Below, piece after piece: positions 584 to 46,797 of a stretch of 64,000 bases of DNA. The stretch's first letter is position 1, and each line of letters opens with the position of its first letter. The notes under the pieces were generated by a model. It ran no database searches. It saw only the letters and a list, made by a program, of their open reading frames with translations, and was not told the origin of the DNA. This DNA comes from Rhodopirellula sp. SM50 (lineage in GTDB: Bacteria > Planctomycetota > Planctomycetia > Pirellulales > Pirellulaceae): contig NZ_NTFY01000013.1 of the NCBI RefSeq assembly GCF_002289565.1, positions 1 to 64,000 on the forward strand. Direction: 5' to 3'. Position numbers and translations under genes: made by a program.

Positions 584-2182
584 TTATTGCCAGTGCTTTT
601 TCAGTAGGTATTGATTGTCTTTGCCGTGCTGTAACCAGTCGTCGTATTCCGCTCGAGAGCGAAAGGGGGGGATGTGGTGTGGCTGCAGTTTCTCGGATGT
701 TTTCACTAAAGGGGCTGGCGAGAGCGGGATCTTGGCGGCCAGTTTGTTCTTGATCTGCGAAAACTTCGGATCCTCCGCAAGGTTGTGCCATTCTTCGGGA
801 TCGGAGTGATGGTCGTAGAGCTCTTCGCTGCCATCGATGTAACGTGTGTACCGATACCGCTCGCTGCGGACAGAAAACTCGCCATAGTCGTAGGTCGTCA
901 AGGCGACATGATCCCATGCTGCATCAGGCTGCTTGAGAAGCGGGGTCAGGCTATGACCATCGATCGCGTTGTTGGCGGGCAGTCCGCAGACGTCGACGAG
1001 TGTTGGGTAGATGTCTTGCAACGAAACGGGGCGATGACACAGATGTCCATCTGCGGAACCGTCGCGCAGTCCGGCAGTACCGCTCGGGACATGGATCATC
1101 AACACCGAGCGTACGACGTTGTCCCAGAGCGCGAATTTGCGCCAGTGCTGTTTCTCGCCAAGCTGCCAACCGTGGTCGGACCACAACACCACGACCGTGT
1201 TTTCACGTTTGCCACTTTCGTCCAGTCCATTGAGCAAACGTCCAAACATGGCATCTGCAAACGCAATCGACGCCAGGTACCCCTGGACGGCTTGTTTCCA
1301 CTGCCCCGCTTTGATGACGTGCTGATGGTAGCCTCCCCCACGAAAGGCGATGTCTCTTGCCCGTGGTCCAACATCGTCAAGATCGCTCTCCCACCGCTTG
1401 GGCAGGACGATGTCATCGAGGGGAAACAGGTCGAAGTATTTGCGCGGCACATACCACGGCAGGTGCGGGCGATAAATGCCGCACGCCAGAAAGAGCGGTT
1501 TGTCGCGTGGTTGGTTGAGCTGTTGCAGCACATAGTCGACACTCTTGAAGTCGCCCATCTGTTCATCAGGAACATCCAGCGCCGACCAGTCGAACATCCC
1601 ATACATCTGATGGAACGCCGGCATGTTCATCGTCTTTGGCGTCGGCTGATCCGCCGTTGCGAGCGTGGACTTGGTAAAATCGGGGAAGGCTTCGTCGGGC
1701 ATGTTTTGCTGCTGCGACGGCCAGTACTCGTCCCAACAATCGGGATCGACCATGTGGTAGTGGAAGATCTTCCCCGCGCCGCAACTGAAGTAGCCGTGCC
1801 GTCGAAAATAGGCTCCAATCGTTCGGCGATTCGGAATCGCTTCGCGCCAATCCTGGTAGTTGGAGTAAACGCCGGACGTATAAGGTGCCAACCCGGTCAT
1901 GATCGCAGTGCGTGATGGGTTGCAGCCGGGGCTTGGGCAATTTGCGTTGGTGAAGCAGACAGACCGCTTCATAAAACGGGTGAAGTTTGGTGTCACTGCC
2001 TGAGGATGCCCCTTGAGCGGTTCAATCCAATCGTTCAGGTCATCGACGGAAACGAAGAGAACATTGGGGCGTTGTTCCTGCGCGAATGTTGACGCAAACG
2101 CGGGCAACAACAATAGGCAGGTCAAAATCAGCTGGAGTCTGTTATTCACGAGTCTTCGTCTCATCAATGTGTTCTGCATCAT
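584..2182 (-). CDS. Secreted sulfatase, iduronate-2-sulfatase-like
   Basis: A 532-residue alkaline-phosphatase-fold sulfatase that should hydrolyse a sulfate ester on an extracellular sulfated sugar. After a hydrophobic export signal (residues about 18-35) comes the metal-binding segment VLFVSVDDLND (DD at 47-48). The formylglycine site is Cys87 in CNPSR (87-91), followed by TAIMTGLAPYTSG. SDHGWQLGEKQHW and ELYDHHSDPEEWHNLAEDP are the usual downstream sulfatase blocks. The order of blocks and the SVDDLND form fit the iduronate-2-sulfatase-like group; the real substrate cannot be read from sequence. A second Met at residue 8 is an alternative start. It faces the same way as the next sulfatase but is separated from it by a palindromic repeat element, so the two are probably not one transcript. 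Confidence 0.9.
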   Translation of the reverse strand: MMQNTLMRRRLVNNRLQLILTCLLLLPAFASTFAQEQRPNVLFVSVDDLNDWIEPLKGHPQAVTPNFTRFMKRSVCFTNANCPSPGCNPSRTAIMTGLAPYTSGVYSNYQDWREAIPNRRTIGAYFRRHGYFSCGAGKIFHYHMVDPDCWDEYWPSQQQNMPDEAFPDFTKSTLATADQPTPKTMNMPAFHQMYGMFDWSALDVPDEQMGDFKSVDYVLQQLNQPRDKPLFLACGIYRPHLPWYVPRKYFDLFPLDDIVLPKRWESDLDDVGPRARDIAFRGGGYHQHVIKAGQWKQAVQGYLASIAFADAMFGRLLNGLDESGKRENTVVVLWSDHGWQLGEKQHWRKFALWDNVVRSVLMIHVPSGTAGLRDGSADGHLCHRPVSLQDIYPTLVDVCGLPANNAIDGHSLTPLLKQPDAAWDHVALTTYDYGEFSVRSERYRYTRYIDGSEELYDHHSDPEEWHNLAEDPKFSQIKNKLAAKIPLSPAPLVKTSEKLQPHHIPPFRSRAEYDDWLQHGKDNQYLLKKHWQ

Positions 2183-2228
2183 TTCCTGTTTAACAAGTCG
2201 CCGTCACGATCGCAGGCGATGTCTGTTA

Positions 2229-2381
2229 GCCCGGCGGGCAACGCTGCGAAGCATTTTTTCCATGTGTTTCTTGAGGATTTAGCGGCAGGGCGCGAGCCCT
2301 CCGGTTCATCCTCTTTGCCAAAACACCGGAGGGCTCGCGCCCTATCGCAAAAAAATGCTTCACAGCGTCGCCCGGAGGGTC
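2229..2381. repeat. Nested palindromic repeat element A
   Basis: The inner arms are GGCAGGGCGCGAGCCCTCCGG (about 2284-2304) and its near-complement ACCGGAGGGCTCGCGCCCT (about 2326-2344). The outer arms, CAACGCTGCGAAGCATTTTTT (about 2238-2258) and AAAAAAATGCTTCACAGCGTCG (about 2350-2371), also pair. The element fills the gap between two sulfatase genes. Elements with the same core lie at 22226-22388 and 33455-33590. It could act as a transcription or mRNA-stability barrier. Confidence 0.8.
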
Positions 2382-2463
2382 GGTCGAGCGTTTTCCGGTG
2401 GTGTCGGTCTGACCGTCGGCAATCGGCAATCGCGTCAGGCCTTCGTCGCGCATTGGCGGACGA

Positions 2464-3885
2464 TCACTTCGCACGCTGTGGTCGACTGGCGTTGGTCGTT
2501 TTCAGCCATGCTTCCAACTCGGATCGAAGTTGTTCGGCCTTTTTCGGCATCTCGTCGGCGAGGTTTCGCGACTCGCTGAGATCATTTTTTAAGTCGTAGA
2601 GTTCGATCGAGTCATCGTCATAGTATTTGATCAACTTGTAGTCACCTGAGCGAATCGCGCTTCCCAATCGATTCTGTTTGTGAAACGCGTAATTGGGATA
2701 GTGGAAATAGATCGACTCACGTTTCAATTGGGGTTCGTTTTTGAACAGCGGTAACAATGAGATTCCATCGGGAGTATTGGAGGGATCAGCCTTCAGGTTC
2801 GCTGCATCAAGAATCGTCGCATGGATGTCCATGGTAATCGCGGGCGTCGAGGTTTGCGTGGAAGGACTGACGCGACCGGGCCAGCGAACAATCATCGGGA
2901 TTCGAATTCCACCTTCGTACAGGAACCCTTTCTCCGCCCGCAATGGTTGGACGTTTGCCTGGAACGGTCCGTTGTCCGAGGTGAAGATCACCAGGGTGTC
3001 TTCGCCCAACCCCTGTTCGTCAATCGCCTTGATGAGTTTACCGATCGATCTGTCCATTCCCTCAATCATTGCAGCGTACGTCGGATTCTCGACGCCCGGT
3101 CCTTTTCTGCGTTCGTATTTGGCGATCAAGTCGGCGGGAGCTTGGAATGGGTAGTGAACCGAGTAATTCCACCAGCAGAGAAAGAACGGTCGGCTCTCAT
3201 CAGTTGTCGCGGACTTGATGAAGCTGATGCATTCATCAGCGCACCGATCCGGCAAGTACTCGCCGTCGAAGTTTTCTTGCAGATTGGGAATTCTGTACGG
3301 ACTGAAATAGCTTGGTGGCCCCCCAAAACGACAGCCTCCGATATTGATGTCGAAGCCCTGGTGTTCAGGACGCAACTCCGCTTCCGTCGGCTGGTTCATC
3401 TCGGAGTCGGGATTTGATCGGCTGCGATGAGAGAGGTGCCACTTTCCCACAAAGCCTGTCGCATACCCTGCCTGTTTGAGTTGCTCGGCCAGGGTGACCC
3501 GTTCCAGCGGTAGGTGTCGCAACCAAATCGGTGTGATCAGATCCGTACCGGGTTTTTGGAAATTTGGAGGGTGTCCTCCGGCGTGATTCGTAATGTTGAG
3601 ACGAGCCGGTGATTCTCCCGTCATCAGTGCCGCGCGTGTCGGCGTACAAACGGGCGCGGCGGAATAGGCATCAGTGAAAAGCAAACCTTGCTTTGCCAGC
3701 CGATCGAGGTTGGGCGTGTCAAGTTTCTCGTTGCCGTAACAATGAAGGTCTTTCCACCCCAGGTCGTCCGCCATGATCAAAACAATGTTTGGCGAGTGTT
3801 CATGCTTCGCTGTGTCCTGGCCAAACGCAATCGTCGACAAGGCACTCACAGCGATCAGCAAAGCCAAGAAACAATCGAAGCGCAT
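2464..3885 (-). CDS. Secreted arylsulfatase-type sulfatase
   Basis: A sulfatase of about 473 residues. I chose the start at 3885 because MRFDCFLALLIAVSALSTIAFG is then a clean export signal; the frame stays open to 3960, but the extra 25 residues would spoil it. The metal-binding segment is NIVLIMADDLGWKDL (DD at 40-41). The formylglycine site is Cys80 in CTPTR, followed by AALMTGESPARLNI. Later blocks are GFVGKWHLS, FTSDNGPF and the C-terminal ELYDLKNDLSESRNLA. The family converts the Cys to formylglycine and uses it to cleave sulfate esters; the substrate is unknown. It lies 10 bp downstream of a chimeric remnant that itself ends in a sulfatase C-terminus. Confidence 0.9.
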   Translation of the reverse strand: MRFDCFLALLIAVSALSTIAFGQDTAKHEHSPNIVLIMADDLGWKDLHCYGNEKLDTPNLDRLAKQGLLFTDAYSAAPVCTPTRAALMTGESPARLNITNHAGGHPPNFQKPGTDLITPIWLRHLPLERVTLAEQLKQAGYATGFVGKWHLSHRSRSNPDSEMNQPTEAELRPEHQGFDINIGGCRFGGPPSYFSPYRIPNLQENFDGEYLPDRCADECISFIKSATTDESRPFFLCWWNYSVHYPFQAPADLIAKYERRKGPGVENPTYAAMIEGMDRSIGKLIKAIDEQGLGEDTLVIFTSDNGPFQANVQPLRAEKGFLYEGGIRIPMIVRWPGRVSPSTQTSTPAITMDIHATILDAANLKADPSNTPDGISLLPLFKNEPQLKRESIYFHYPNYAFHKQNRLGSAIRSGDYKLIKYYDDDSIELYDLKNDLSESRNLADEMPKKAEQLRSELEAWLKTTNASRPQRAK

Positions 3886-33610: not shown

Positions 33611-35869
33611 TTAACGGTCGACACGCTCACTTTCGACCGGCGGGGTTGCCGCGACGGTGACGTTGTCGATAAAGATCTCTGCGTTGGTGGCGTTGCCGAA
33701 CAATCCGGGACTGCCCTGGGTGTTGGGCGCGGGGTCGGTCGCGGTCAAGGTCCACGTATCAGGTTCCTCCGTTCCCCGCGGCCAAACCTTGCCGCGCAAG
33801 ACGAGCTGTCCCTCTTCGTTGGTGGCCTGAAACTTGATCGAATACCACGTGTCGGCTTTCCAAGCAAAGGAAACACTGCGCGCCATTCGGTTCTGCGCCG
33901 GCCAGGTGCGAATTTGCAGCTGCTGATTGGTGCCCATCAAATCCAGCGTGTAACGCTGCGCGATCAGACCGATGTCGGGCAACTTGGAAGCCGCCGCCGC
34001 TTTGACGTCTGCGGTCACGGTGTAGTCGTGCATGTCAGTCGGTCCCATCCACGACTGGCTGCGTGTGCCCTTGGGAATGGTGGTGATTTTGACCAACGCC
34101 GGGTCGCCATCGATTTTGCGGGGTTCGTGGCGATAACGGGCGCCGACCCAAGTCACCGGAACGGCGTTGTCGCTGAAATCGAATTGCCAGGGCAACGGAG
34201 GGACGACGCGGAAGCGGGATGTCGCGACGTGGTCGCCGATGCGTGCGGTCACGACTGCGGCGGTGTGGCCAGCGACGTCGCTGGACGCGAGGAAGTTCTG
34301 GTCGGCATCAACTCGGCCATCGCCGGACACTTCATACGTCGCGTTTGTCGGAGTTTCCAAACGCTGTCCGATCGCGTTGTACGCCACCAACCGCAGCGGC
34401 AACGCCTCGCCCGGGATTGAGATGGCTTCGGCGGGGATCAATTGCAAGTGGCTGATCGTGCTGTCGGTGACGGCGGGTCGGGGCTGGGCGTCGAGCGCCG
34501 ACGCGATCGCATTTTGGCCGGATGCGGTGTCCTCTGTCTCCTCGCCGGCCAAACAGTACAGGCCTTCGGTAGTGGGCAGGTACAGCCGGCCTTTGGAAAC
34601 GGCCAAGGAACCGCCGACTTCATGGCCGCGCGGCAAACGTGACTTGTAAACCGTTTCGATCCCGTCTTCGGTCGGTTTGAGAATATAGAAGTAGCCGGTC
34701 GCGGTGCAGGCATAGATCTTTTCGTCGGCGTAGATCAGACTGCCGCGCATCGAGGTACCGAGTTTCAGTCCGTCACCGATCTCGTTGCCGGTTTCCGCGT
34801 CGAGCACGTGCAGGTGCGAGGAATCCTCGACCACGTAGAGCCGTCCGTCGACCAACAAGGGCGAACTCTTGCCGACCGTTAACTCGGGCGTCCGCCAGAC
34901 TTCGGCCGACGCCGTCTCCAGGCTTGCACGTGTGGCATCGATCCGGACCACGGCGCCCATTGCGGTGCCGGTCGGGTTTTCTTCACCGTGGGCGGTGTAA
35001 ACCTGGCCGTTGTCATCGACGACGGCCGACGTGTTGATACCGCGTCGTGAAATCGGCTGACTCCAGAGAATCTTGCCGGTTCGCGGTTGCATGCCATACA
35101 GGAATCCGTCGCCCGCGCCGGCAATCATCACGTCTTGTCCGTTGATGTTCGTGATGACGGGCGTGCTGTAGGTGGTGTCTTCGGGCAGCGGTCGGGTGCT
35201 GGTGATCCAAGCCAGCACGCCCGTCGATTTGTCAAAGGCAAGGAAACGGTGCGCGGGTCTGGCGGTTTCGTCCCAGCCGGTCGTGACCCCACTGATGATC
35301 ACCAAGTCCTCGAACACCACCGGAGTGTTGGTGCGGCCGCCGTAGGTGCTGAGCATTCCGAATTCTTCGCTCAGCGACCGGGACCAAAGCGTCTGGCCGG
35401 TTTGTCCGTTCATCGATTGCAGCAGGCAACAGGCACCGAGCGCGTACACGTTGCCGGTGTCCGGATCGCAAGCCACGTTGGACCAACCGATTCGCTCCGC
35501 AGGCACGTCGGACAGGAACACGTTGTAAACGTTTTCCCAAAGTTGTTCTCCGGTGTTCGCATCCAGGCAGATAACTTTCTCGGCATCTTTGGGGGTGCCC
35601 GGTTGATCACGAACGATGGTGTAGAGTCGTTCGTTGAAGATGACGGGTGTGGAGATCCCGCCGGCTTGCGGGTTCTTCCATCGAATGTTGCTTCCCGAAC
35701 CGCCGGACCATTTGACGTCGTCGACCAGTCCCGATACCTGTGCGATGCCGTTTTGATTCGGGCCACGCCACTGTGTCCAGTTGGCCGAGTCGTTCGCTGC
35801 GGCAATCGGCAAAAAGAAAGAAAGGCAGAGGCAGCAGCTGAGAACAGTCGGGTAGCGTTTGAGTGGCAT
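33611..35869 (-). CDS. Secreted PQQ-like beta-propeller protein with C-terminal domain
   Basis: About 752 residues. The start at 35869 gives MPLKRYPTVLSCCLCLSFFL, an export signal; the frame is open 300 bp further without homology. Residues 25-460 carry tryptophan-docking-like propeller repeats (WTQWRGPNQNGIAQ, LDANTGEQLWENVY, MNGQTGQTLWSR, MQPRTGKILWSQP, LDAETGNEIGDGL). The PQQ-ligand residues of true quinoprotein dehydrogenases are not evident, so a scaffold role is more likely. Residues about 520-740 form further beta-rich domains, the last resembling a family-16-like laminin-G/concanavalin fold (WMGPTDMHDYTVTADVKAAA ... WYSIKFQATNEEG). The WRGPNQNG opening is typical for such planctomycete proteins. 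It is transcribed alone. Confidence 0.85.
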   Translation of the reverse strand: MPLKRYPTVLSCCLCLSFFLPIAAANDSANWTQWRGPNQNGIAQVSGLVDDVKWSGGSGSNIRWKNPQAGGISTPVIFNERLYTIVRDQPGTPKDAEKVICLDANTGEQLWENVYNVFLSDVPAERIGWSNVACDPDTGNVYALGACCLLQSMNGQTGQTLWSRSLSEEFGMLSTYGGRTNTPVVFEDLVIISGVTTGWDETARPAHRFLAFDKSTGVLAWITSTRPLPEDTTYSTPVITNINGQDVMIAGAGDGFLYGMQPRTGKILWSQPISRRGINTSAVVDDNGQVYTAHGEENPTGTAMGAVVRIDATRASLETASAEVWRTPELTVGKSSPLLVDGRLYVVEDSSHLHVLDAETGNEIGDGLKLGTSMRGSLIYADEKIYACTATGYFYILKPTEDGIETVYKSRLPRGHEVGGSLAVSKGRLYLPTTEGLYCLAGEETEDTASGQNAIASALDAQPRPAVTDSTISHLQLIPAEAISIPGEALPLRLVAYNAIGQRLETPTNATYEVSGDGRVDADQNFLASSDVAGHTAAVVTARIGDHVATSRFRVVPPLPWQFDFSDNAVPVTWVGARYRHEPRKIDGDPALVKITTIPKGTRSQSWMGPTDMHDYTVTADVKAAAASKLPDIGLIAQRYTLDLMGTNQQLQIRTWPAQNRMARSVSFAWKADTWYSIKFQATNEEGQLVLRGKVWPRGTEEPDTWTLTATDPAPNTQGSPGLFGNATNAEIFIDNVTVAATPPVESERVDR

Positions 35870-36492
35870 GGAGGTGCTTGATGGCGGGCTTGGGAACAAG
35901 CGTGAGAGACAAACGCCGGGGAAGTCGCGGTGCAGGGCTGCACGCCGAGAACACCACCCGCGGACGGTTTGTATTGACGTTGCCGGTGGAATGCACGAAT
36001 CGTGCCAAGTCAGAGCCGGATTTGAATAAGCCCACCGATGGCAAGGCGTCCCCACGGATAGAAAGCAGCCTGGGATCGTCCGTGCAATCGAATTGATCGA
36101 AGGAAGCCATTTGCCAGACGGTCCGCAGCTGACTCGCATGACCTTTACCGACGGACATTGCACTACCATGGGCGTTCAACGGAGCGGCATCACAACGAAA
36201 CGCACGACCGGTGACGATTCGAACTGGAAAAAATTTTTCCGCCGATGGCAGTTTCTTTGCCGGATGGAGATGCTGCTGACGCGTCGCGATGACTTTCGCG
36301 ACGGTTCAACCCGCCCAGAGCGACCGGATGATGGCAAAACCATGGTGCTGTCGACCGGACGAGACCAGGATCGGGCAAGTGACCGCCGCAGCGATCCAGA
36401 TTGGTACGCGATGTGCCTCGCAACTGGCGATCATCATTACGACCCCATTGGTATGGAGCGGATGAGTTCTGTTGCCTTGCCACTGTCGCTCC
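35870..36492. other. Divergent intergenic region
   Basis: About 620 bp between the propeller gene (minus) and the amidoligase cluster (plus). Frames of 60-160 codons exist on both strands but show no family resemblance and have odd composition. Promoters of both units must lie here; no clear -35/-10 pair or operator was recognised. Confidence 0.5.
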
Positions 36493-37272
36493 ATGAAACA
36501 TGCGCTGCACCTCGAAATACAACCCCAGCCCAACGATTCAAGTTGTGGTCCGACATGCTTAGCGGCCGTCTATGCCTACTGGAATGACTCCGTCGACATT
36601 GGCCAGCTGATCGGTGAGACGGGTGGCGGGAATGGGGCGGGGACATTGGCGGTTCAACTGGGGTGCCACGCGTTGCAGCGAGGCTACGACACCGAGATCA
36701 CGACGTATAACCTGCATCTATTCGATCCGTCGTGGTTTGATCCGACCAGCGGCACCGCCGAGGCCGATCGATTGTCCCACAAGCTGCGACAGCAGCTGGA
36801 GGCCAAACGTTGCCGCAAGGACATTGATGTGAAGCGTTTCGAAGTCGCGACGGGATACTACCTGCAGTACCTCCGGCTGGGCGGGCGCGTGCGGATGCAG
36901 CGTCTGGACGATCGTTTGATCACGAAAACGTTGACCGCCGGCGTGCCAATTCTGTGTGGCTTGAGTGCAACATATTTGTATCAGGAATCACGGGAGCGCC
37001 CCCAACCGCTTGATGCGGACGGACGCAGCAGTGTTGCCGACGACATTGCCGGCGATCCGGTCGGGCATTTTGTGGTGCTGCATGGCTACGACCGTGTTTC
37101 GGGCAATGTTTTGATTGCCGATCCGTTGCACCCCAATCCGTTCGCACCGACGAACAATTACTTGGCGCCGTTGTCGCAAGTCACCTCGGCCATCTTACTG
37201 GGTATCGTCACGTACGATGCCAATTTATTGACTTTGGAACCCACCGCGTCATCAAAAAGGATTTTGGATTGA
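36493..37272 (+). CDS. C39-like cysteine peptidase of an amidoligase cluster
   Basis: A 259-residue protein of the papain-like C39 superfamily. The catalytic Cys18 lies in NDSSCGPTCLAAVYAYW, His192 in GHFVVLHGYD and Asp210 in VLIADP; Gln12 could form the oxyanion hole. There is no signal peptide and no ABC-transporter domain, so it acts in the cytoplasm as a single peptidase, transglutaminase or ligase-like enzyme. The start at 36493 is the Met just before the conserved region. It is the first gene of a four-gene cluster and overlaps the RimK-like gene by 4 bp (TTGA). In proteobacteria such C39-like genes are found next to RimK-like genes, so they likely work on the same peptide or amide product. 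Confidence 0.8.
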   Translation: MKHALHLEIQPQPNDSSCGPTCLAAVYAYWNDSVDIGQLIGETGGGNGAGTLAVQLGCHALQRGYDTEITTYNLHLFDPSWFDPTSGTAEADRLSHKLRQQLEAKRCRKDIDVKRFEVATGYYLQYLRLGGRVRMQRLDDRLITKTLTAGVPILCGLSATYLYQESRERPQPLDADGRSSVADDIAGDPVGHFVVLHGYDRVSGNVLIADPLHPNPFAPTNNYLAPLSQVTSAILLGIVTYDANLLTLEPTASSKRILD

Positions 37273-38744
37273 ACATCGTGCTTGTTGCCGAAACCGCCGA
37301 CGATTGGCTCGGGCGGTTTGAGGGCGTTGAAACCATTGACCCCGGCGAATTCCTATCCAGTCTCAATGGAAGCACTCCACGTGGGGCCAGGGTTTACAAC
37401 CTGTGTCGATCGTACGCCTACCAAAGCCTCGGATACTACGTGTCGTTGTTGGCCGAGGCGCGGGGGCAGCGTGCGGTGCCCGATGTCGTCACGATCCAAG
37501 ACTTGCGGGGGACCGCCGCGATTCGGCTGATTCCGCAACATCTGGAGGAGCTGATTCAAAAGTCGTTGCAATCGTTGACGACTGACAGTTTTGTGTTGAG
37601 CGTGTATTTCGGTGAAAACGTTGCCAAAAAGCACAGCCGGCTGGCTAAAGAATTGTACGCGTTGTTTCAAGCTCCGCTATTGCGATTCAAGTTCACCCGA
37701 GGCAGCAAGTGGCGGTTGCGTGGCGCCTCGGCGATCGCTTTGAACGATGTGCCCAAGCACCACCGTCAATTCGTTGCCGATGCGGCTCAGCGGCACTTCA
37801 CACGCCGGAGCACCGTTCGCACGAAGCGTCAGGTGACGCGATACGACATGGCGATTTTGCATGACCCGAAGGAAGGCGAATTGGCACCGTCGGACGAGGC
37901 CGCATTGAAGAAGATGGTCAAGGCCGCAGCGAAAGAAGGCATTGCGGCGGAGTTGATCACGCGTGAGGACACCGGGCGATTGCTGGAGTTCGACGCGTTG
38001 TTCATTCGCGAAACGACCGCGGTCAACCATCACACCTACCGCACAGCCAGACGTGCCCAAGCCGCGGGGATGGTCGTGATCGACGATCCACTCTCGATCT
38101 TACGCTGTTCCAACAAGGTCTATCTGGCCGAATTGCTCAATCGAGCCAAAGTGCCGACGCCGCGAACCATCGTGGCCCATCGCGGCAACGCCGACGAAGT
38201 CGCCGGGCAACTCAGTTTTCCGTGTGTGTTGAAACGTCCCGACAGCGCGTTTTCGCAAGGCGTCGTCAAAGCCGAAAACGCCGGCGACCTCAAACGTCGA
38301 TTGGACGAATTCTTTTCCGATTCGGAGCTGCTGATCGCCCAAGAGTACATGCGAACCGACTTCGATTGGCGGATCGGGATCCTCGATCAACGCGCCGTGT
38401 TCGCCTGCAAGTACCACATGGCGCGGGGGCACTGGCAGATCGCCCATCACGGTTCGAAGGGCAGCAAACCGAAATTCGGCAAATGTGAAACATTGCCCGT
38501 CGAAACCGCTCCGCGAAAGGCCGTCTCGGTCGCGTTGAAAGCTGCCAACTTGATCGGTAACGGACTGTACGGTGTCGACGTCAAAGAATCCGATGGTCAA
38601 TTTTATGTCATCGAAGTCAACGACAATCCCAACCTCGATTCCGGAATTGAAGACGCCGTGCTCCGCGATGAACTTTATCGACGGATCATGGAGTCGTTCA
38701 CTCGACGCATCGAAGTCCAAAAGCAACTAGCCAACTCGAGATAA
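37269..38744 (+). CDS. RimK-like ATP-grasp ligase with RLAN N-terminal domain
   Basis: A 491-residue enzyme. Residues about 1-150 resemble the RimK-like ATP-grasp N-terminal (RLAN) domain. An ATP-grasp domain spans about 280-480: LLNRAKVPTPRTIVAHRG, PCVLKRPDSAFSQGVVKAE, LIAQEYMRTDFDWRIGIL, and the metal-binding end FYVIEVNDNPNLDSGIED (from about 445). Such ligases join a carboxylate, often of glutamate, to an amine via an acyl phosphate. The start is TTG at 37269, overlapping the stop of the peptidase gene, so coupled translation is likely. The GCS2-like gene begins 2 bp after its stop. The acceptor is unknown. Confidence 0.85.
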   Translation: MNIVLVAETADDWLGRFEGVETIDPGEFLSSLNGSTPRGARVYNLCRSYAYQSLGYYVSLLAEARGQRAVPDVVTIQDLRGTAAIRLIPQHLEELIQKSLQSLTTDSFVLSVYFGENVAKKHSRLAKELYALFQAPLLRFKFTRGSKWRLRGASAIALNDVPKHHRQFVADAAQRHFTRRSTVRTKRQVTRYDMAILHDPKEGELAPSDEAALKKMVKAAAKEGIAAELITREDTGRLLEFDALFIRETTAVNHHTYRTARRAQAAGMVVIDDPLSILRCSNKVYLAELLNRAKVPTPRTIVAHRGNADEVAGQLSFPCVLKRPDSAFSQGVVKAENAGDLKRRLDEFFSDSELLIAQEYMRTDFDWRIGILDQRAVFACKYHMARGHWQIAHHGSKGSKPKFGKCETLPVETAPRKAVSVALKAANLIGNGLYGVDVKESDGQFYVIEVNDNPNLDSGIEDAVLRDELYRRIMESFTRRIEVQKQLANSR

Positions 38745-38746
38745 TC

Positions 38747-39985
38747 ATGTCAGACCGTTTGAAGTTGTTCGATGCGTATGGCATTGAACTGGAATACATG
38801 TTGGTCGACCGCGACACGCTCAGCGTGCGACCGATCGCCGATGTGTTGCTGGCGTCACTGGCCGGCGGTGAATTGACGTCGGAATATGAATCCGGACCGA
38901 TTACCTGGTCCAACGAGTTGGCCTTGCACGTCATCGAGCTCAAGACGACCGACCCGGCGACGAAGATTCGTCCTTTGGCGTCGCGATTTGAAAAGGCGAT
39001 CCGCGATCTGGGGCCTGCCTTGGACGCGCTGAACGTGCGATTGATGCCGACGGGGATGCATCCTTGGATGGATCCCGTCGTCGAGACCGCGTTGTGGCCG
39101 CATCAGTATCACGAGATCTACGATCTCTACAATAAGATCTTTGATTGTCATAGCCATGGCTGGGCGAACGTGCAAAGCGTTCACCTGAATTTGCCGTTTG
39201 CCGATGATCAGGAGTTCGGCCGGCTGCATGCCGCCGTGCGGTTGGTGCTGCCGCTGCTGCCGGCGCTGACGGCCAGTTCACCGGTGGTCGGTGGCAACTA
39301 TTCGGGGCAACTCGATTCGCGGATGACGTTTTATGCCGAACACTGCAGCAAGGTGCCCTCGCTGGTCGGCGACGTGATTCCCGAACCGATTTATGATCAG
39401 GCCACGTACCAGGCGGAAATCATGGATCGTCTGTTCGCCGACATGCGTCACCATGATGCCGAGGGAGTGTTACACGGCGAGTTCCTCAATGCGCGGGGGG
39501 CGATCGCCCGATTTGACCGTGGATCGATCGAGTTGCGGGTGATGGACGTGCAGGAGTATCCCGGTGCCGACGTGGCGGTCTGCGCCGCGGTCATCGCGTT
39601 GGTGAAAGAACTTGTTGCGGAATCCTGGACGTCACTAGACCAGCAAAAGACGGTCCCGACCTCATTGCTTCGCGGTATCCTCAACCAAGTGAGCGAGCGG
39701 GCTGAAAACGCCAAGATCGAATCGCCCGACTATCTGAAGCTGTTCGGTTATCCCGGCTCCAGTTGCCGCGCCGGTGACTTGTGGGCGTTCCTGCTTGACC
39801 GGATGAAGCGAAACGATGAAGTGCTCGATAGTTTGTTTGCACCGCTGCAGGTGATCACCGACCAAGGAACGCTGGCGACGCGGATTTGTGCCGCACTGGG
39901 CAAGAGATTTACGTTGGACGACTTGAAAGATGTGTATGACGAAGTCGCCGATTCGTTGGATCATTGGGAACCCTTTCAGCCGTGA
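38747..39985 (+). CDS. GCS2-family glutamate-cysteine-ligase-like amidoligase
   Basis: A 412-residue protein of the glutamine-synthetase-fold GCS2 family (YbdK and relatives). Near the N-terminus the metal and nucleotide segment FDAYGIELEYMLVD holds the conserved Glu pair, followed by SNELALHVIELKTTDP, LMPTGMHPWMDP, HSHGWANVQSVHLNLPFAD, and later DRGSIELRVMDVQEYPGAD. Family members join the gamma-carboxyl of glutamate, or another acid, to an amine. With a RimK-like ligase next door it is unlikely to be a plain glutathione enzyme; a two-step peptide or amide synthesis fits better. It follows rimK-like by 2 bp. Confidence 0.85.
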   Translation: MSDRLKLFDAYGIELEYMLVDRDTLSVRPIADVLLASLAGGELTSEYESGPITWSNELALHVIELKTTDPATKIRPLASRFEKAIRDLGPALDALNVRLMPTGMHPWMDPVVETALWPHQYHEIYDLYNKIFDCHSHGWANVQSVHLNLPFADDQEFGRLHAAVRLVLPLLPALTASSPVVGGNYSGQLDSRMTFYAEHCSKVPSLVGDVIPEPIYDQATYQAEIMDRLFADMRHHDAEGVLHGEFLNARGAIARFDRGSIELRVMDVQEYPGADVAVCAAVIALVKELVAESWTSLDQQKTVPTSLLRGILNQVSERAENAKIESPDYLKLFGYPGSSCRAGDLWAFLLDRMKRNDEVLDSLFAPLQVITDQGTLATRICAALGKRFTLDDLKDVYDEVADSLDHWEPFQP

Positions 39986-40062
39986 CACGGGAAAGCGTGG
40001 TGCAGGGATCCCGACGCCACGCTCTTGTCGCTGCAAAACCGGCTGACCATCAACGGACGTCA

Positions 40063-40797
40063 ATGAATTCGCTGCCCTCTGCAAACTGCAATCAGAGTTA
40101 CGTCGTGACGTGCGAACATGGTGGCAACCAGGTTCCGAGCGAGTTTGCCGATGCGTTTCGTCGCGGCGATGCAATGGCTTGGCTGGCCAGTCATCGCGGT
40201 CACGACCCGGGATCGATGACGGCCGCGATGCAGTTGGCAGAACACTTGAACGTCGATCTGATTTCATCGACCACCACGCGTTTGTTGGTTGATTTGAATC
40301 GATCGCTCGATCACCAGATGCTGTTTTCCAAATACACTCGCGACCTGGCCGACGAGCGGAAGCGGATCATCCTGGATCGATATTATCACCCCTATCGAAA
40401 CGCAGTGGGAAAGGTGATCGATTCGATCGTCGATCAGGGCCAGACGGCCATCCACTTTTCCGTCCATACCTTTACGCCTCGGATCGCTGGCGTGTGGCGA
40501 CCGATTGATATCGGATTATTGTTTGACCCCGACGCCGGCGGCGAAGCGGAGTATTGTCGGCGCTGGCGACAGCGTTTGGTGGAGCGGTTTCCGAAACGGC
40601 GGGTGCTGATGAACGAGCCGTATGCCGGCACCGCCGACGGGCTGACGACGGCGTTGCGGCAACGTTACGATTCGCGGCGATACTTTGGCATTGAGATCGA
40701 GATCAACCATCGGTTCTTCAAACGATCACCGGAACACCAGCGGCGAGTCGTCGAGGAACTGATCGCCGCCGGTTGGGAGGAGGCGCCGATCGTTTAG
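40063..40797 (+). CDS. N-formylglutamate amidohydrolase-like enzyme
   Basis: A 244-residue protein of the N-formylglutamate deformylase (FGase) family. The start at 40063 (MNSLPSANCNQSYVVTCEHG) fits homology; the frame is open back to 39964. The opening block VVTCEHGGNQVPSEF is the zinc-site segment of the family. Later come HRGHDPGSMTAA, LLVDLNRSLDH, HFSVHTFTPRIAG and GIEIEINHRFF. It removes acyl groups from glutamate in histidine degradation, but here no hut gene is near. It ends the amidoligase cluster and probably hydrolyses the product or an intermediate. Confidence 0.85.
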   Translation: MNSLPSANCNQSYVVTCEHGGNQVPSEFADAFRRGDAMAWLASHRGHDPGSMTAAMQLAEHLNVDLISSTTTRLLVDLNRSLDHQMLFSKYTRDLADERKRIILDRYYHPYRNAVGKVIDSIVDQGQTAIHFSVHTFTPRIAGVWRPIDIGLLFDPDAGGEAEYCRRWRQRLVERFPKRRVLMNEPYAGTADGLTTALRQRYDSRRYFGIEIEINHRFFKRSPEHQRRVVEELIAAGWEEAPIV

Positions 40798-40908: not shown

Positions 40909-42885
40909 TTACCGCCAGGCTGCGAAGGCGTCGTCGAGCAACTGCAGTGGAGAAGCGTCCGATGAGGTCTCTTCACCGTCTTGTCCACTTGAATCGGATG
41001 ACGTGGTTGTCGAACCGGTGTCCGACGAACGGACCGCTTCGGCACTCCATCGGATTCCTTTCGTTTCGGCATTCGAACTCGTCAGCAACGACAAGGGGGC
41101 CGGTGCGTATTCCGGCTCGGCAACGGATTTGGCACCCGTTCGCAGCACGTCCGATGGCGAGGCGAGCGTGGGACTGGCTGCCAACAAGACGGGACTTTCG
41201 GGGCCGTTCCAATCACCGGCCAGTGGAGTCCATCCCGCGTTTCCGCCGGGGCCGAATGCGAAGTATTGATCGGAGGCGCCGGGGGTGAAGGTGTCCTTCA
41301 GATGGAACAGCGAGATGTCGGGCTGATACAGACCGATCGTGTCGGTAGCGTCACCGTTCCAATCGCCCGCCAAGGGTGTCCAACCGGCGTTTCCACCGGG
41401 GCCGAACGCGAAGTACTGATCCGAGGCGCCGGGCGTGAACGAATCCTTCAAGTGGAACAGCGAGATATCGGGTTGATACAGCCCGATGGTGTCGACGCCA
41501 TCGCCGTTCCAGTCACCGGCCAGCGGAATCCAGCCCGCATTGCCGCCCGGGCCAAATGCGAAATAGTGATCCGACGCCCCGGGGGTGAAGGAATCTTTGA
41601 GGTGGAATAGCGAAATGTCGGGTTGATACAGACCAATCGTGTCGGTGCCATCTCCGTTCCAGTCACCGGCCAACGGAATCCAGCCCGCGTTTCCGCCGGG
41701 GCCGAACGCGAAGTACTGATCCGAGGCGCCGGGCGTGAACGAATCTTTCAAGTGGAACAGCGAGATATCGGGTTGATACAGCCCGATGGTGTCGATGCCG
41801 TCGCCGTTCCAGTCACCGACCACCGGGGTCCAGCCCGCATTGCCACCCGGGCCAAACCCGAAGTACTGGTCCGAAGGGCCGGGGGTGAAGGATTCCTTGA
41901 GATGGAACAGTGAGATGTCGCCTTGGTAAAGTCCGATCGTATCGAGCTTGAATTCATTCGTCGTCTCCGTGCGGATGCCGGCGTCGACGTTGAGCAGCGT
42001 TTGACCGCCGCTAAAATCAAGCGTGGCGGTGGCCCCGGTCGCCGGATCGACATCGCTATCGACGGTGGTGTCGGCGCCGACTTGCAGCAACGTGAATTCT
42101 TGGCCGCTGGGCACGTTGTCGAAACGAACCTGGTAATTGCCTGAGGGCAAATTGTAGAACGAATAAAAACCGTTGCTATCGACTTGCATCGAATCGATGG
42201 CGACGGAATCTTGCAACAACACGGCGGTGATATTCTCGACGGGCTGATCGCCTGCTTCTCGAAGACCGTCTCCATCGGCATCTGAGAAGACGCGTCCGGA
42301 AACACTTCTCAAGCTCGGGTCTGGGAATTCGGTTCCGGATGGAATCACATCGGTTTGCGAAATCGCAGCCTGGGCGGATTCGGAAAAGGGGACTCCGAAG
42401 ACGGTGCCGGTTATTGAAATGCCGAGTGTGCCGGACAAACCGCTTGTGGGGAAATCGATGCCCGAAACCAACGTCGCGGTGAACAGACCGTTTTGGATCG
42501 GTTGACCGGCGACGGTTCCGGTCACGGTGCCGGGAAAGTGATCGGGGCCGACGCTGTCAACCTGCAACGTATCGGGACTGACACCTGCGACGATCGCCAA
42601 CGGTGGCGTCGAGTTGGTCGTCTGGAACGAGGCGACGACGTTGAATCCATCCACCAGTCCACTCACTTGACCGGAGCTTGTCACTTCGACGTTCGTCAGA
42701 CTGATGTCTTCGGGGCCGTCGAGTGCGGGATCGAGAACCACCGCGTCGAATCTCAACACGGCGTTGCCGGAAATCTGAAGTCCACCTTCATTGGTGTCAA
42801 CGCTGAAGGTCGTGTCGACGGGGATCAGGCCCGCAGCCAACAGTGTGCGGGCCTCTAAACGCTCAAATCGATTGCGACGACGCAT
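40909..42885 (-). CDS. Large exported surface protein with SdrD-B-like domain and five 50-residue repeats
   Basis: A 658-residue protein. The start at 42885 gives MRRRNRFERLEARTLLAAG, the N-terminal signature seen on many planctomycete surface proteins, and no classical signal. Residues about 30-190 form a beta-rich domain. SGRVFSDADGDGLREAGDQP (about 200) opens an SdrD-B-like domain. Then follow five tandem 50-residue units, each like DTIGLYQPDISLFHLKDSFT plus GPGGNAGW-PLAGDWNGDG, which resemble FG-GAP/VCBS propeller or calcium-binding repeats. The C-terminus is Ser/Ala/Asp-rich and disordered. It probably decorates the cell surface and binds calcium or glycans. It is transcribed alone. Confidence 0.8.
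   Translation of the reverse strand: MRRRNRFERLEARTLLAAGLIPVDTTFSVDTNEGGLQISGNAVLRFDAVVLDPALDGPEDISLTNVEVTSSGQVSGLVDGFNVVASFQTTNSTPPLAIVAGVSPDTLQVDSVGPDHFPGTVTGTVAGQPIQNGLFTATLVSGIDFPTSGLSGTLGISITGTVFGVPFSESAQAAISQTDVIPSGTEFPDPSLRSVSGRVFSDADGDGLREAGDQPVENITAVLLQDSVAIDSMQVDSNGFYSFYNLPSGNYQVRFDNVPSGQEFTLLQVGADTTVDSDVDPATGATATLDFSGGQTLLNVDAGIRTETTNEFKLDTIGLYQGDISLFHLKESFTPGPSDQYFGFGPGGNAGWTPVVGDWNGDGIDTIGLYQPDISLFHLKDSFTPGASDQYFAFGPGGNAGWIPLAGDWNGDGTDTIGLYQPDISLFHLKDSFTPGASDHYFAFGPGGNAGWIPLAGDWNGDGVDTIGLYQPDISLFHLKDSFTPGASDQYFAFGPGGNAGWTPLAGDWNGDATDTIGLYQPDISLFHLKDTFTPGASDQYFAFGPGGNAGWTPLAGDWNGPESPVLLAASPTLASPSDVLRTGAKSVAEPEYAPAPLSLLTSSNAETKGIRWSAEAVRSSDTGSTTTSSDSSGQDGEETSSDASPLQLLDDAFAAWR
41195..41943 (-). 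repeat. Five 150-bp coding repeats
   Basis: Each unit encodes 50 residues. Copies 2 and 4 from the right are nearly identical over about 100 bp (positions from 41399 and from 41699), showing a 300-bp higher-order period on top of the 150-bp unit. This points to recent duplication or gene conversion of a two-unit block. Confidence 0.85.
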
Positions 42886-43242
42886 GGGGAAACCTCGTTG
42901 TTCTGCATTGAAAATCGGAATCCCCGATCGGCAGGCATGCCAACGAGATGGCAGACGAGACGATCGGGCAAACACTAATCTCGCATCCGAACCAGTCGCC
43001 TTATGCCCCATCAGAAACAGAGTGACGCGAACGAATGGTTATACTCACCCCGCGCACTCGATGCGAGCGACCGGGAAAAAAACAGCCATTTTGTTCGACG
43101 GCGGTTCTGCCACCGAATCTGCTGATGGCCTGCCGCTGAACGCATCGGGTTCCACGCTGGTCCCAACGCGGCCGAGCTCACACAGCCGAGCCCACGAACG
43201 ACTCCGGTGGCGAGGGCTTGATGTCCCGGCAGCGTCATCCGA
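42886..43242. other. Intergenic region upstream of the surface protein
   Basis: About 357 bp between the surface-protein start and the end of the aldolase gene. No gene and no strong repeat was seen. The promoter of the surface protein should lie here. Confidence 0.45.
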
Positions 43243-44004
43243 TCAGCTGAGTTCGTCGTATTGCTGAATGTCTTCTCGAAGGCCTTTGGAAAAGTGCCCG
43301 AACTCGCTGCTGTTGACCAGCAACTGGGCACCGAGATCGCGCCGCTTTTGCATCTCTTCAAGCCCCATCGTCGGACCGCCAAACGCGACGCCATGCTTTT
43401 TGCAGGCCGCGGCGACCGCATCCCAAGCTTCGTCGATCGTCATTTCACCGGATTGACGCAACCGCAGTCCCAGGTCACCTGGGCCGACAAAGATCATCTC
43501 GACGCCCTCGACCGCCGCGATCGACTCGACATTGTGAACACCCTCGGGCGTTTCGATTTGCACGCACAGAAAGGTTTCGCGGTTGGCCCACTGGACGTAG
43601 TGGTCGGGGTCGTGAACATGAAAGTCGGCGTCCAGTCCGGCGTTGTCAATCCCGCGGTCGCCCAGCGGCGGGAACTTGACCGCGTCGACCAACATCCTGG
43701 CTTTCTCGGCCGTCGAGACATGAGGGATCAGCAAGCCCGTCGCGCCGTCTTCCAGGTACCGATAGAGCCCCGTTTTTTCCAGCGTCGGCGGCCGCAACAT
43801 CACGTCGATGTCGTACAAGTGCGAGAACGCCAGCAACGCCTGAGTTTCATGGATCGACAACGCGCGGTGTTCCAGATCTAGCCACAGGCAATCGTACCCG
43901 GCACGCGCGGCATGACAGACATAGGCGGGGATATAGTGCCCCAGCACGCAGGTTCGGATGGCTTCTCCATTGCGGATGCGTGCCAGTGTTTTGCTTTTTC
44001 TCAT
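43243..44004 (-). CDS. HpcH/HpaI family aldolase
   Basis: A 253-residue class II (metal-dependent) pyruvate aldolase. Family motifs are CLWLDLEHRALSIHETQALL (phosphate/substrate region), DVMLRPPTLEK, QIETPEGVHNVESIAAVEGV (metal Glu) and MIFVGPGDLGLRLRQSGEM (metal Asp). The barrel is complete. Members cleave 2-keto-3-deoxy sugar acids or related acids to pyruvate plus an aldehyde; garL/hpaI-like. In a polysaccharide-degrading organism a 2-keto-3-deoxy-uronic or aldaric acid is a likely substrate, but the exact one is unknown. It stands alone between the surface protein and an intergenic region of 620 bp. Confidence 0.9.
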   Translation of the reverse strand: MRKSKTLARIRNGEAIRTCVLGHYIPAYVCHAARAGYDCLWLDLEHRALSIHETQALLAFSHLYDIDVMLRPPTLEKTGLYRYLEDGATGLLIPHVSTAEKARMLVDAVKFPPLGDRGIDNAGLDADFHVHDPDHYVQWANRETFLCVQIETPEGVHNVESIAAVEGVEMIFVGPGDLGLRLRQSGEMTIDEAWDAVAAACKKHGVAFGGPTMGLEEMQKRRDLGAQLLVNSSEFGHFSKGLREDIQQYDELS

Positions 44005-44628: not shown

Positions 44629-46797
44629 ATGAAAGTCACCCCGTTTATTTTGGTCTTGGTTGTCGGTTTGTCACTTCATCAGGCCTTGTGGCCTAGGGGA
44701 CTGCGGGCCGAAGTGGTAACGCGTCGGCCGAACATTGTCTTGATGATGGCCGACGACATGGGGATGGGGGATACGAGTGCGTATCAGGATTTCACCGGCA
44801 ACGGGGATGACGTCCAAGTCCACACGCCACAAATGGAACGGCTGGCCAGAATGGGCGTGCGGATGACCGATGCCCACACGCCTTCTTCACGGTGTTCGCC
44901 GACGCGGTACGGGTTACTGACCGGGCGATATCCGTGGCGCAATCGGTTGAAGTATTGGGTGTTGTTTGGCGCCCAGGGTGACCCGATGATCGAAGCGGAT
45001 CGGCCGACGATCGCATCGATGTTGCGCGACCAGGGATACTCGACGGGGCTGGTCGGCAAGTGGCACGTGGGGCTGCGCTATCGCCGCAGCGACGGTTCAC
45101 CGGCCGCCCAATGGAGCGACGCCGATCTGCGCAAGCCCTTGTTCACGACGCCACTGGACCACGGTTTTGATTTCGCCCGATTCACGTCGCGGTCTCATGG
45201 AACTTCGGGACCCGACGCGGGTGCAAAAAAAGCGAAGAAGCCAAACGGCCCCCGGCAAAGCGTCGGACCGGGGCACATTCACGGTCGCACCGCGATCGCT
45301 GCAACAGCCAACGGAAAACAGCTTGCCACGGTCGGCCCGGCCGCGTATGTGTTGAGCGAGTTGGGCAGCCGTCACTCCGATCACGCCATCGAGTTTCTGG
45401 AGCAACAGACGCGACCCGGACGAGGCTCAAGCAAGCCATTCTTTTTGTATTACCCGTCCAATTCCAATCACGGACCGTACACCCCGGACCGAGCGATTGA
45501 TGGCAAGCCGGTTGCGGGCGCGGCGCGCACGAAGTCGGGCGATCCGATGGACGCGCGGCACGATTTTATTTACGAGAACGATGTCGCGCTGGGACGGTTG
45601 CTCGACTGGTTGGAAAAGACGGACGATCCCCGGCACGCCGGCCGCAAGATGATCGAGACCACCCTGGTGATCTTTACCAGCGACAACGGCGCGGAAAAGA
45701 ACAGTGACATAGCGACCGGACCGTTTCGTTCGCACAAGGGATCGGTCTATGAAGGCGGCCACCGCGTGCCCTTTATCGCGGCGTGGGCGGCGGGAGGCAT
45801 CGGTGACGGTGATGCGACGACGCCCGGCCAAACCTCTGGCCAACCCATCGGGCTCCAGGATTTGTATGCAACCGTTGCGGAAATCGTCGGTACCGACCTG
45901 CCCGATTTAAGACGCGGTGAAAAAGGCGCCGAAGACAGTTTCAGCGTCCTGGCGGCACTCCGTGGAGAATCAATCGCCGGACGCCCGCCCTTGTTCTTCA
46001 ACGATCACAAGGAAGCCAAGGGGGACCCGGCCGCGGTTGCCATGCGTCTTGATTCGCCCACGATCGACGGCACAACGTATGACGGGCAATGGAAACTGTT
46101 TTTTGATGCCCGTCTGTTGCGAGCCGGACAAACGCACCCGTATGAACTGTACAACTTGACGGTCGATCAGTGGGAAACCAATGATCGAATCGATGACCCA
46201 ACGCTTGAGCCGTTGATTCATTCCATGGCAGAGCAAGCATTCTTGCATCGCAACGCCGGCGGCCATCGCCTGGTGCCGATCGCGACCACGAAGCGAGCGA
46301 CGATTGACTTGCATGCCGACGCGGCGGTTGCCAAGCAGATCGATGGCAAGTCGGTCGCTGAAGCGGTGATCGACTTCGGTGACACGCAATTGACGATGGT
46401 GATGGAAGCCGTTGCCGACAAACGAGCGTCCGCGGAGCCGGCGTTCCGCACCGCCGCAGTCGGCTTAGGGATCCGCGGCGGCCGTCCGGGCAAAGTCGAT
46501 CAGCACGAAGCCATCGTGATCAAATTCGATCGGGACGTGATCGTTGAATCCGCAGCGATCGTGGCCGGGCAAGACGGTGTCTGCGGCGGGTTTTACCGGG
46601 TCGGCGAGGGGGCACCGTTGGCGATCTACTGCGTCGATGCCGACCTGGACGCCAAAGACCAAAGTGGTTTGCTGAGCGACATCGGGGTGCTGCAGGCGGG
46701 AGCGTCGTTGCGATTGGACAGCAGTCCGCACTACGGCGTCGAAGCCGCCGGGATCTGGAGTCTGCAACACCTGACCGTTCGGTTGGTCGAACACTAG
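44629..46797 (+). CDS. Large secreted sulfatase with C-terminal extension
   Basis: A 722-residue sulfatase, longer than the usual 450-550. The export signal MKVTPFILVLVVGLSLHQAL is followed by NIVLMMADDMGMGDTSAY (metal DD) and the formylglycine site Cys89 in CSPTR (89-93), then YGLLTGRYPWRNRL. GLVGKWHVGLRY, FYTSDNGAEKN-like IFTSDNGAEKN and YELYNLTVDQWETNDR are the remaining core blocks. Residues about 545-722 form an added beta-rich domain (from TIDLHADAAVAKQIDG) without a recognised family; it could bind carbohydrate. Its stop overlaps the stop of the convergent MarR gene (CTAG). The substrate is unknown. Confidence 0.9.
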   Translation: MKVTPFILVLVVGLSLHQALWPRGLRAEVVTRRPNIVLMMADDMGMGDTSAYQDFTGNGDDVQVHTPQMERLARMGVRMTDAHTPSSRCSPTRYGLLTGRYPWRNRLKYWVLFGAQGDPMIEADRPTIASMLRDQGYSTGLVGKWHVGLRYRRSDGSPAAQWSDADLRKPLFTTPLDHGFDFARFTSRSHGTSGPDAGAKKAKKPNGPRQSVGPGHIHGRTAIAATANGKQLATVGPAAYVLSELGSRHSDHAIEFLEQQTRPGRGSSKPFFLYYPSNSNHGPYTPDRAIDGKPVAGAARTKSGDPMDARHDFIYENDVALGRLLDWLEKTDDPRHAGRKMIETTLVIFTSDNGAEKNSDIATGPFRSHKGSVYEGGHRVPFIAAWAAGGIGDGDATTPGQTSGQPIGLQDLYATVAEIVGTDLPDLRRGEKGAEDSFSVLAALRGESIAGRPPLFFNDHKEAKGDPAAVAMRLDSPTIDGTTYDGQWKLFFDARLLRAGQTHPYELYNLTVDQWETNDRIDDPTLEPLIHSMAEQAFLHRNAGGHRLVPIATTKRATIDLHADAAVAKQIDGKSVAEAVIDFGDTQLTMVMEAVADKRASAEPAFRTAAVGLGIRGGRPGKVDQHEAIVIKFDRDVIVESAAIVAGQDGVCGGFYRVGEGAPLAIYCVDADLDAKDQSGLLSDIGVLQAGASLRLDSSPHYGVEAAGIWSLQHLTVRLVEH

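Follow-up and report, generated by a model that had tools for sequence, protein, structure and literature searches.

The window analysed here, 64,000 nucleotides of contig NZ_NTFY01000013.1 from the planctomycete Rhodopirellula sp. SM50 (positions 1 to 64,000), contains a set of four genes, at 36493-40797 and all on the plus strand with almost no intergenic space, that is a real and widely conserved unit of two ligases and two hydrolases. The set comprises a C39-like cysteine peptidase, a RimK-type ATP-grasp ligase preceded by an RLAN domain (hereafter RLAN-RimK), a carboxylate-amine ligase of the GCS2 fold and a hydrolase of the N-formylglutamate amidohydrolase (FGase) fold. All four had been named in a preliminary description made from the DNA letters, and each was recovered with Pfam matches above the curated cut-offs (Peptidase_C39_2 2e-9, RLAN 2e-43, RimK 6e-12, GCS2 2e-24 and FGase 8e-21); none of the four proteins attains the cut-off of any NCBIfam model that it matched. 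The tight packing described for all but the last gene was likewise seen, as RLAN-RimK overlaps the end of the C39-like gene by 4 bp, GCS2 begins 2 bp further downstream, and the FGase-like gene follows after 77 bp. We tentatively read the set, with somewhat less than even confidence, as a self-contained pathway of the cytosol that makes a small gamma-glutamyl-type peptide without the ribosome and whose substrates and product we infer.

Conservation was assessed from two directions. An RLAN domain turned up in 65 out of 246 planctomycete genomes, and neighborhoods were taken from 60 of the 64 positives besides the window's own. RLAN-RimK was accompanied by GCS2 in 46 of these and was without it in 13, while one neighborhood (L050) was interrupted by a contig end. 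A GCS2 alignment was also scanned against the genomes of 84,980 species, yielding at least 555 confirmed relatives, the best 80 of which were used. In these loci, found via GCS2 alone, RLAN-RimK adjoins GCS2 in the same order and on the same strand in 78 cases, and was not found beside it in the other two (L116 and L154). Adding the window and a single plasmid record brings the pooled set to 128 GCS2 loci, 126 of them with both ligases; it holds little redundancy (123 distinct GCS2 sequences). When "near" is taken as at most 4 kb away and on the same strand, C39 and FGase are both near in 81 of the 126 two-ligase loci; in a further 21 only C39 is near, in 18 only FGase and in six neither of them, which places C39 near in 102 loci and FGase in 99. 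Among the pairs found anywhere in a locus (103 with C39, 101 with FGase), not one showed the opposite strand or a different order. Domain edges of successive genes lie 30, 42 and 42 nt apart in the median, though 1.7-6 kb apart in a few loci, and at such short distances there is typically space for no further gene within the set. Gene content, order and strand that repeat over 126 loci exclude a chance juxtaposition. The preliminary description had put the two amide-forming ligases, the papain-like peptidase and the FGase-fold enzyme together as one cluster, and had seen scattering of the genes in relatives as the result that would speak against this; the comparative neighborhoods instead give one conserved unit in a single order and strand.

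The two ligases are the steady core of the set. At five planctomycete loci (L083, L084, L085, L087 and L088) both are encoded in a single frame of 990-1028 aa, and in the three fusions that were scanned with Pfam, RLAN is placed N-terminally and GCS2 C-terminally, with RimK found between them in two. This is opposite to the domain order of the glutathione-synthesizing fusion protein GshF. The pairwise identities of RimK and GCS2 correlate (r = 0.84, 6428 pairs), by a statistic that ignores species kinship. The steady pairing and the fusions fit successive action of the ligases on one small substrate; linked ligases are described as often catalyzing successive ligations in peptide-derived metabolites in the available text of the R2K ATP-grasp paper (PMC4431377).

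In RLAN-RimK, the RLAN domain (PF14401) matches at 148.1 bits against a cut-off of 25, and its profile found no sequence match in the PDB (best E 0.63). The second half of the protein is predicted to adopt a RimK-like ATP-grasp fold. In the AlphaFold2 (AF2) model, with a predicted local distance difference test score (pLDDT) of 92.4, residues 192-482 superpose on ArgX, LysX and RimK with Z values of 26.8-28.1 and a root-mean-square deviation (rmsd) of 2.2-3.0 over 262-273 aligned residues, the list of structural neighbors spanning residues 190-485 only, i.e. not RLAN. The corresponding conserved residues are K283, K322 and R368 (114/114) and D437, E449 and N451 (113/114). For all this likeness in fold, the ligase of the set differs from RimK, LysX and ArgX in its additional RLAN domain and in scoring below the cut-off of the RimK family (TIGR00768; 74 against 143.4 bits).

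The GCS2 protein belongs to the carboxylate-amine ligase superfamily by its PF04107 match and its GhExE motif, the latter being the metal/ATP signature of these ligases in the available text of PMC2588565. G12, E14 and E16 are kept in 122 out of 123 sequences, as are R264 and D267, and E262 in all 123. A profile of the family retrieved YbdK (1r8g, 1.8e-7) and plant glutamate-cysteine ligase (2e-4 to 6e-4) from the PDB. Nevertheless, the family scores set it apart. Against the YbdK-type model TIGR02050, with a cut-off of 176.4 bits, the protein obtains 59.6 bits and its Legionella and Algibacter relatives 73.8 and 53.2 bits, and it also falls below the cut-off of every glutamate-cysteine ligase model that it matched. 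Two other GCS2 proteins in the same genome, at 306.9 and 274.2 bits, are above the YbdK cut-off. The idea that the enzyme is a plain gamma-glutamylcysteine ligase, considered in the preliminary description, is thus not borne out by family score. YbdK-type ligases elsewhere in the genome are situated at 1258-2379 (minus strand) of locus L186, where the neighbor by eye resembles an M20-type amidohydrolase, and at 1477-2598 (plus strand) of locus L187, where it resembles a phospholipase D.

Of the two hydrolases, the C39-like protein combines a predicted papain fold with the Gln-Cys-His-Asp residues of such peptidases (Q12 97/100, C18 98/100, H192 100/100 and D210 100/100), and no signal peptide is evident by eye. 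Its AF2 model (pLDDT 93.9) matches the PCAT1 exporter peptidase (Z 16.0, rmsd 2.3, 142 aligned), ComA (Z 15.3, rmsd 2.0, 137 aligned), the pseudomurein endoisopeptidase PeiR (Z 14.6, rmsd 2.4, 147 aligned) and the phytochelatin synthase Alr0975, solved as a glutathione acyl-enzyme (Z 14.5, rmsd 2.5, 156 aligned). The four modeled matches span 1.5 Z in all and single out no substrate. The likeness to the C39 exporter peptidases extends over 142 of the 259 residues, but the protein of the set has no ABC transporter domain. Likewise, 156 of its residues align with phytochelatin synthase, with the same four catalytic residue types, but the phytochelatin family is not among the Pfam matches listed for it, leaving a likeness of fold only. 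The FGase-like protein keeps E18, H19, H44, D48, H131 and H135, each in 98 out of 98 sequences, and has one clear solved relative, Atu2144 (2odf_A, E 1e-12). It belongs to the broader family PF05013 and not to the HutG N-formylglutamate deformylases (TIGR02017; 14.9 against 278.75 bits). All in all, likely catalytic residues are conserved and nearly invariant in all four enzymes; apart from GhExE, their catalytic role is taken from general knowledge of the respective families.

Either hydrolase can be missing. A number of Bacteroidota loci have no C39 beside the ligase pair, and C39 was sought in 14 genomes of 15 chosen loci, including three positive controls, in which it scored 332-347 bits. 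Ten Bacteroidota genomes with the ligase pair and a C39-less locus gave no full-length C39 of the family, although these drafts are possibly incomplete; three of them had weak matches of at most 20-25 bits in frames of 729-746 aa. In the eleventh such genome, that of L104, C39 is found on another contig (302 bits). The genes upstream of the ligases in L155, a locus without C39, by eye resemble SecA and a permease. FGase is not near in 27 of the 126 loci, 21 of which have at least 4 kb of downstream sequence, and it occurs 5-6 kb further on in L108 and L130. A substitute was sought at 10 of the 27, where the downstream genes belonged to six different Pfam families or, in four cases, had no match. 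With the ligase pair steady and the hydrolases sometimes missing, the pair alone would suffice for synthesis, and C39 and FGase would trim or turn over what it makes.

Genes within 9 kb of the 128 loci were clustered (blastp, E 1e-6) after gene picking of our own, a procedure that remote relatives may escape, and no other family was found at a fixed place across phyla. Nor did any transporter, exporter, uptake, regulator or amino-acid-making gene recur at a fixed place in these neighborhoods. The largest neighbor groups (10-17 loci) consisted mainly of syntenic genes from Legionella, and two of these groups also included one or two planctomycete members; the group spread most broadly over the phyla occurred in nine loci, on both strands and at scattered positions. 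Another group, of eight, was discarded as a gene-picking artefact lying antisense over FGase. Open reading frames (ORFs) of 20-120 aa were collected from 1.2 kb on each side of the 126 two-ligase loci, and the 12 largest groups were inspected, among which no Pup-like or other cross-phylum short ORF was found. All 76 members of the largest group proved to be the tail end of the FGase frame, and the other 11 groups, from 5-7 loci, were each confined to a single clade, save one group of five with one outlier (L060). No small acidic carrier of the LysW type was found in these flanks, the rest of the genomes not being searched for one. The Pup ligase PafA is, in the available text of PMC2588565, another carboxylate-amine ligase of the glutamine-synthetase (GS) fold with GhExE, but no Pup-like ORF was found near the four-gene set. 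As far as that text goes, other GS-fold ligases without such an ORF are read as metabolite-making, and by the same reasoning a small product is the likelier one here. A phage or defense origin was also considered and found no support: PADLOC gave no match at E 0.01, the single PHROG match concerned only the ATP-grasp part of RimK (1.6e-8), and GCS2 had no match among 50,697 phage records at E 1e-5.

In the proposed gamma-glutamyl peptide pathway, the GCS2-fold enzyme would phosphorylate a carboxylate, most probably the one in the gamma position of glutamate or of a closely similar compound, and link it with an amine to yield an amide of the gamma-glutamyl type. RLAN-RimK would then activate a second carboxylate with ATP and add another amino acid, with RLAN possibly helping in the choice of acceptor. 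The FGase-like hydrolase might take off an acyl or formyl cap or trim one end, while the C39-like peptidase could cleave or transfer part of the finished compound in its turnover, much as phytochelatin synthase acts on glutathione. The preliminary description had likewise pointed to a gamma-glutamyl or N-acyl-glutamyl product that the FGase-like enzyme would deacylate or cleave. The product is probably a common one for the four-enzyme unit across Planctomycetota, Bacteroidota, Pseudomonadota and five further phyla. Several points weigh against such a pathway. The solved folds closest to the modeled RimK half (ArgX, LysX and RimK) belong to enzymes that modify the termini of proteins or of carrier proteins. 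The ten ligase-pair genomes yielded no full-length C39, whose role may be unrelated to synthesis, and FGase is not near in more than a fifth of the two-ligase loci (27/126). Moreover, RLAN-RimK manages without GCS2 in 13 of the 60 planctomycete neighborhoods (one more being interrupted), the correlation between the two ligases leaves kinship of the species out of account, and no recurrent transporter, regulator or amino-acid-making gene names a substrate.

The main rival explanation is protein modification, which we regard as unlikely, with GCS2 and RLAN-RimK adding glutamate or another amino acid, in the manner of PafA and RimK, to a side chain or the C-terminus of a protein, possibly one encoded elsewhere, and C39 and FGase removing it. 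Two ligases set against two hydrolases do resemble a write-and-erase set, the top structural matches are RimK-type enzymes that extend S6 or LysW, and the papain-fold isopeptidase PeiR is among those of C39, but no conserved Pup-like or carrier ORF was found in the flanks, no other gene keeps a fixed place across phyla, and either hydrolase is dispensable. A pathway that salvages or breaks down gamma-glutamyl or N-formyl-glutamyl compounds, its ligases re-making or detoxifying fragments, appears quite unlikely. Both family membership and conserved residues mark FGase and C39 as hydrolases, and an accessory function would suit the patchy occurrence (see below), but for breakdown it is odd that two ATP-using ligases form the steady part, and no uptake system was seen to keep a constant position. 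It is improbable that the set serves a carrier-protein (LysW-like) pathway or makes a ribosomally synthesized and post-translationally modified peptide from a precursor encoded elsewhere, with C39 as the processing peptidase: the best fold matches of C39 are leader-cutting exporter peptidases, and ArgX and LysX use carrier proteins, but neither a conserved short ORF nor an exporter at a fixed place was found, and C39 can be absent.

Ordinary glutathione synthesis with two extra genes is very improbable. A GCS2-fold and an ATP-grasp ligase, sometimes fused, do make up the layout known from GshA/GshB and GshF, but the set has another GCS2 subfamily, below all the cut-offs given above, an RLAN-RimK without the glutathione synthetase domain (PF02955) among its listed Pfam matches, and C39 and FGase in addition. 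The set is also independent of glutathione synthetase in its occurrence, being present in 4 of the 24 planctomycete genomes with a strong match to this domain (129 bits or more) as compared to 47 of all 246, four RLAN-positive genomes not having been inspected for it (Fisher p = 1.0), and a label of glutathione synthesis was consequently rejected. Elsewhere in the same genome, a tight row on the minus strand (1536-7995 of L194, G000:C87:41500-49500) has three glutathione-synthetase-like ATP-grasp genes alternating with two genes of the tyrosine carboxypeptidase family MATCAP, all five above the Pfam cut-offs, and is possibly another ligase/carboxypeptidase set.

RLAN-RimK also occurs without GCS2 in what appears to be a sister arrangement. 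In L034, L035, L036 and L082, a stand-alone RLAN-RimK directly adjoins a member of one protein family, which in the two loci scanned (L036 and L082) is a GNAT-DUF3335 protein, DUF3335 being C39-like, and in L081 it adjoins a GNAT frame. The other five undivided stand-alone loci (L046, L078, L080, L095 and L096) showed no GNAT-type neighbor. There is also a divergent form, L089-L093, in which the RLAN match is split into pieces and the RimK-type part, downstream of them, has a frame of its own (303-353 aa); a GNAT frame lies downstream in L090, as does, in L092, a member of the same protein group whose domains were not scanned. Judged by these neighbors, there are two different systems in which RLAN-RimK can be joined by both a C39-like peptidase and another acyl- or amide-forming enzyme. 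The sister arrangement has the same ligase family and an adjoining C39-like peptidase, but its GNAT acetyltransferase replaces GCS2 and FGase, and its RimK falls outside the branch of the set. In a tree of 77 RLAN-RimK proteins, thinned to 63 from unfused sets, four fused and ten stand-alone and supported only by the SH-like approximate likelihood ratio test (SH-aLRT), all 63 unfused-set proteins form one group (support 89) together with the stand-alone L046, L078 and L080, while the remaining stand-alone and the fused proteins lie outside it, with a long-branch warning there. Planctomycetota, Bacteroidota and Pseudomonadota are intermixed in this tree.

Eight phyla are represented among the 79 named loci, namely Pseudomonadota (32), Bacteroidota (30), Planctomycetota (7), Thermodesulfobacteriota (2), Myxococcota (2), Bdellovibrionota (2), Acidobacteriota (1) and Hydrogenedentota (1), besides an unclassified bacterium and a Legionella adelaidensis plasmid record. 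The tally uses the organism named in each record, many being metagenome-assembled genomes (MAGs), and since the best 80 loci came from a Legionella-led query, the counts are not abundances. In samples that include their centre genomes, GCS2 of the kind in the set (E 1e-40 or better) was found in 16 out of 198 genomes from the phylum to which Algibacter belongs, in one of them broken into two frames, and in 16 out of 45 of the genus of a MAG titled Legionella, which makes the set accessory and patchy. The plasmid record, L094 (NZ_LR134436.1, the 9 kb 'plasmid 27'), carries fur, bamE, a RatA-family gene and dapF; several of its genes also surround the set in other Legionella contigs, and it may be a chromosomal fragment. 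A MAG titled Klebsiella pneumoniae (L123, CAMBTO010000005.1) has the full set, with 46% identity to the Legionella GCS2, under a title that is possibly wrong.

Table 1. The four-gene set and its flanking frames in the Rhodopirellula sp. SM50 window.
Feature	Position	Strand	Evidence
PQQ beta-propeller protein (flanking frame)	33611-36169	-	family match
C39-like (papain-fold) cysteine peptidase, 259 aa	36493..37272	+	PF13529, residues, AF2 model, PDB fold matches
RLAN-RimK: RLAN (residues 27-172) and RimK-type ATP-grasp (about 192-482)	37269..38744	+	PF14401, PF08443, AF2 model
GCS2-fold carboxylate-amine ligase, separate subfamily; GhExE at residues 12-16	38747..39985	+	PF04107
FGase-fold (N-formylglutamate amidohydrolase-like) hydrolase, 244 aa	40063..40797	+	PF05013, 2odf_A
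SdrD_B-domain protein (flanking frame)	40909-43011	-	family match

The C39-like gene starts with the ATG at 36493, a longer alternative frame beginning with the TTG at 36472. RLAN-RimK starts with a TTG and the FGase-like gene with an ATG, while an in-frame TTG of the latter, at 39964, would overlap GCS2. Scans for promoters and terminators gave about as many hits as shuffled sequence (1 against 1.9 and 6 against 4.3, respectively). The two flanking genes have no evident link to the set. Downstream of it, no link was seen either for an HpcH/HpaI aldolase (43243-44004, minus strand) and a sulfatase (44629-46797, plus strand).

Iyer et al., cited in the R2K ATP-grasp paper, reportedly predicted, in 2009, amidoligase neighborhoods in which ATP-grasp and GS-fold or GNAT ligases stand beside unrelated peptidases, with the product unknown. 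Our literature search, limited and not exhaustive, found no experimental description of the four-gene set, and these enzymes are apparently uncharacterized as a set. A bolder extension of the gamma-glutamyl peptide pathway, which we consider rather unlikely, is an unseen peptide cofactor or buffer of this type in at least eight phyla, independent of glutathione and with its own turnover peptidase, of which the GNAT-C39 sister arrangement would make an N-acylated relative. Identifying the product would establish a new peptide metabolite or modification and would assign functions to the RLAN domain, the GCS2 subfamily of the set and the relatives of both.

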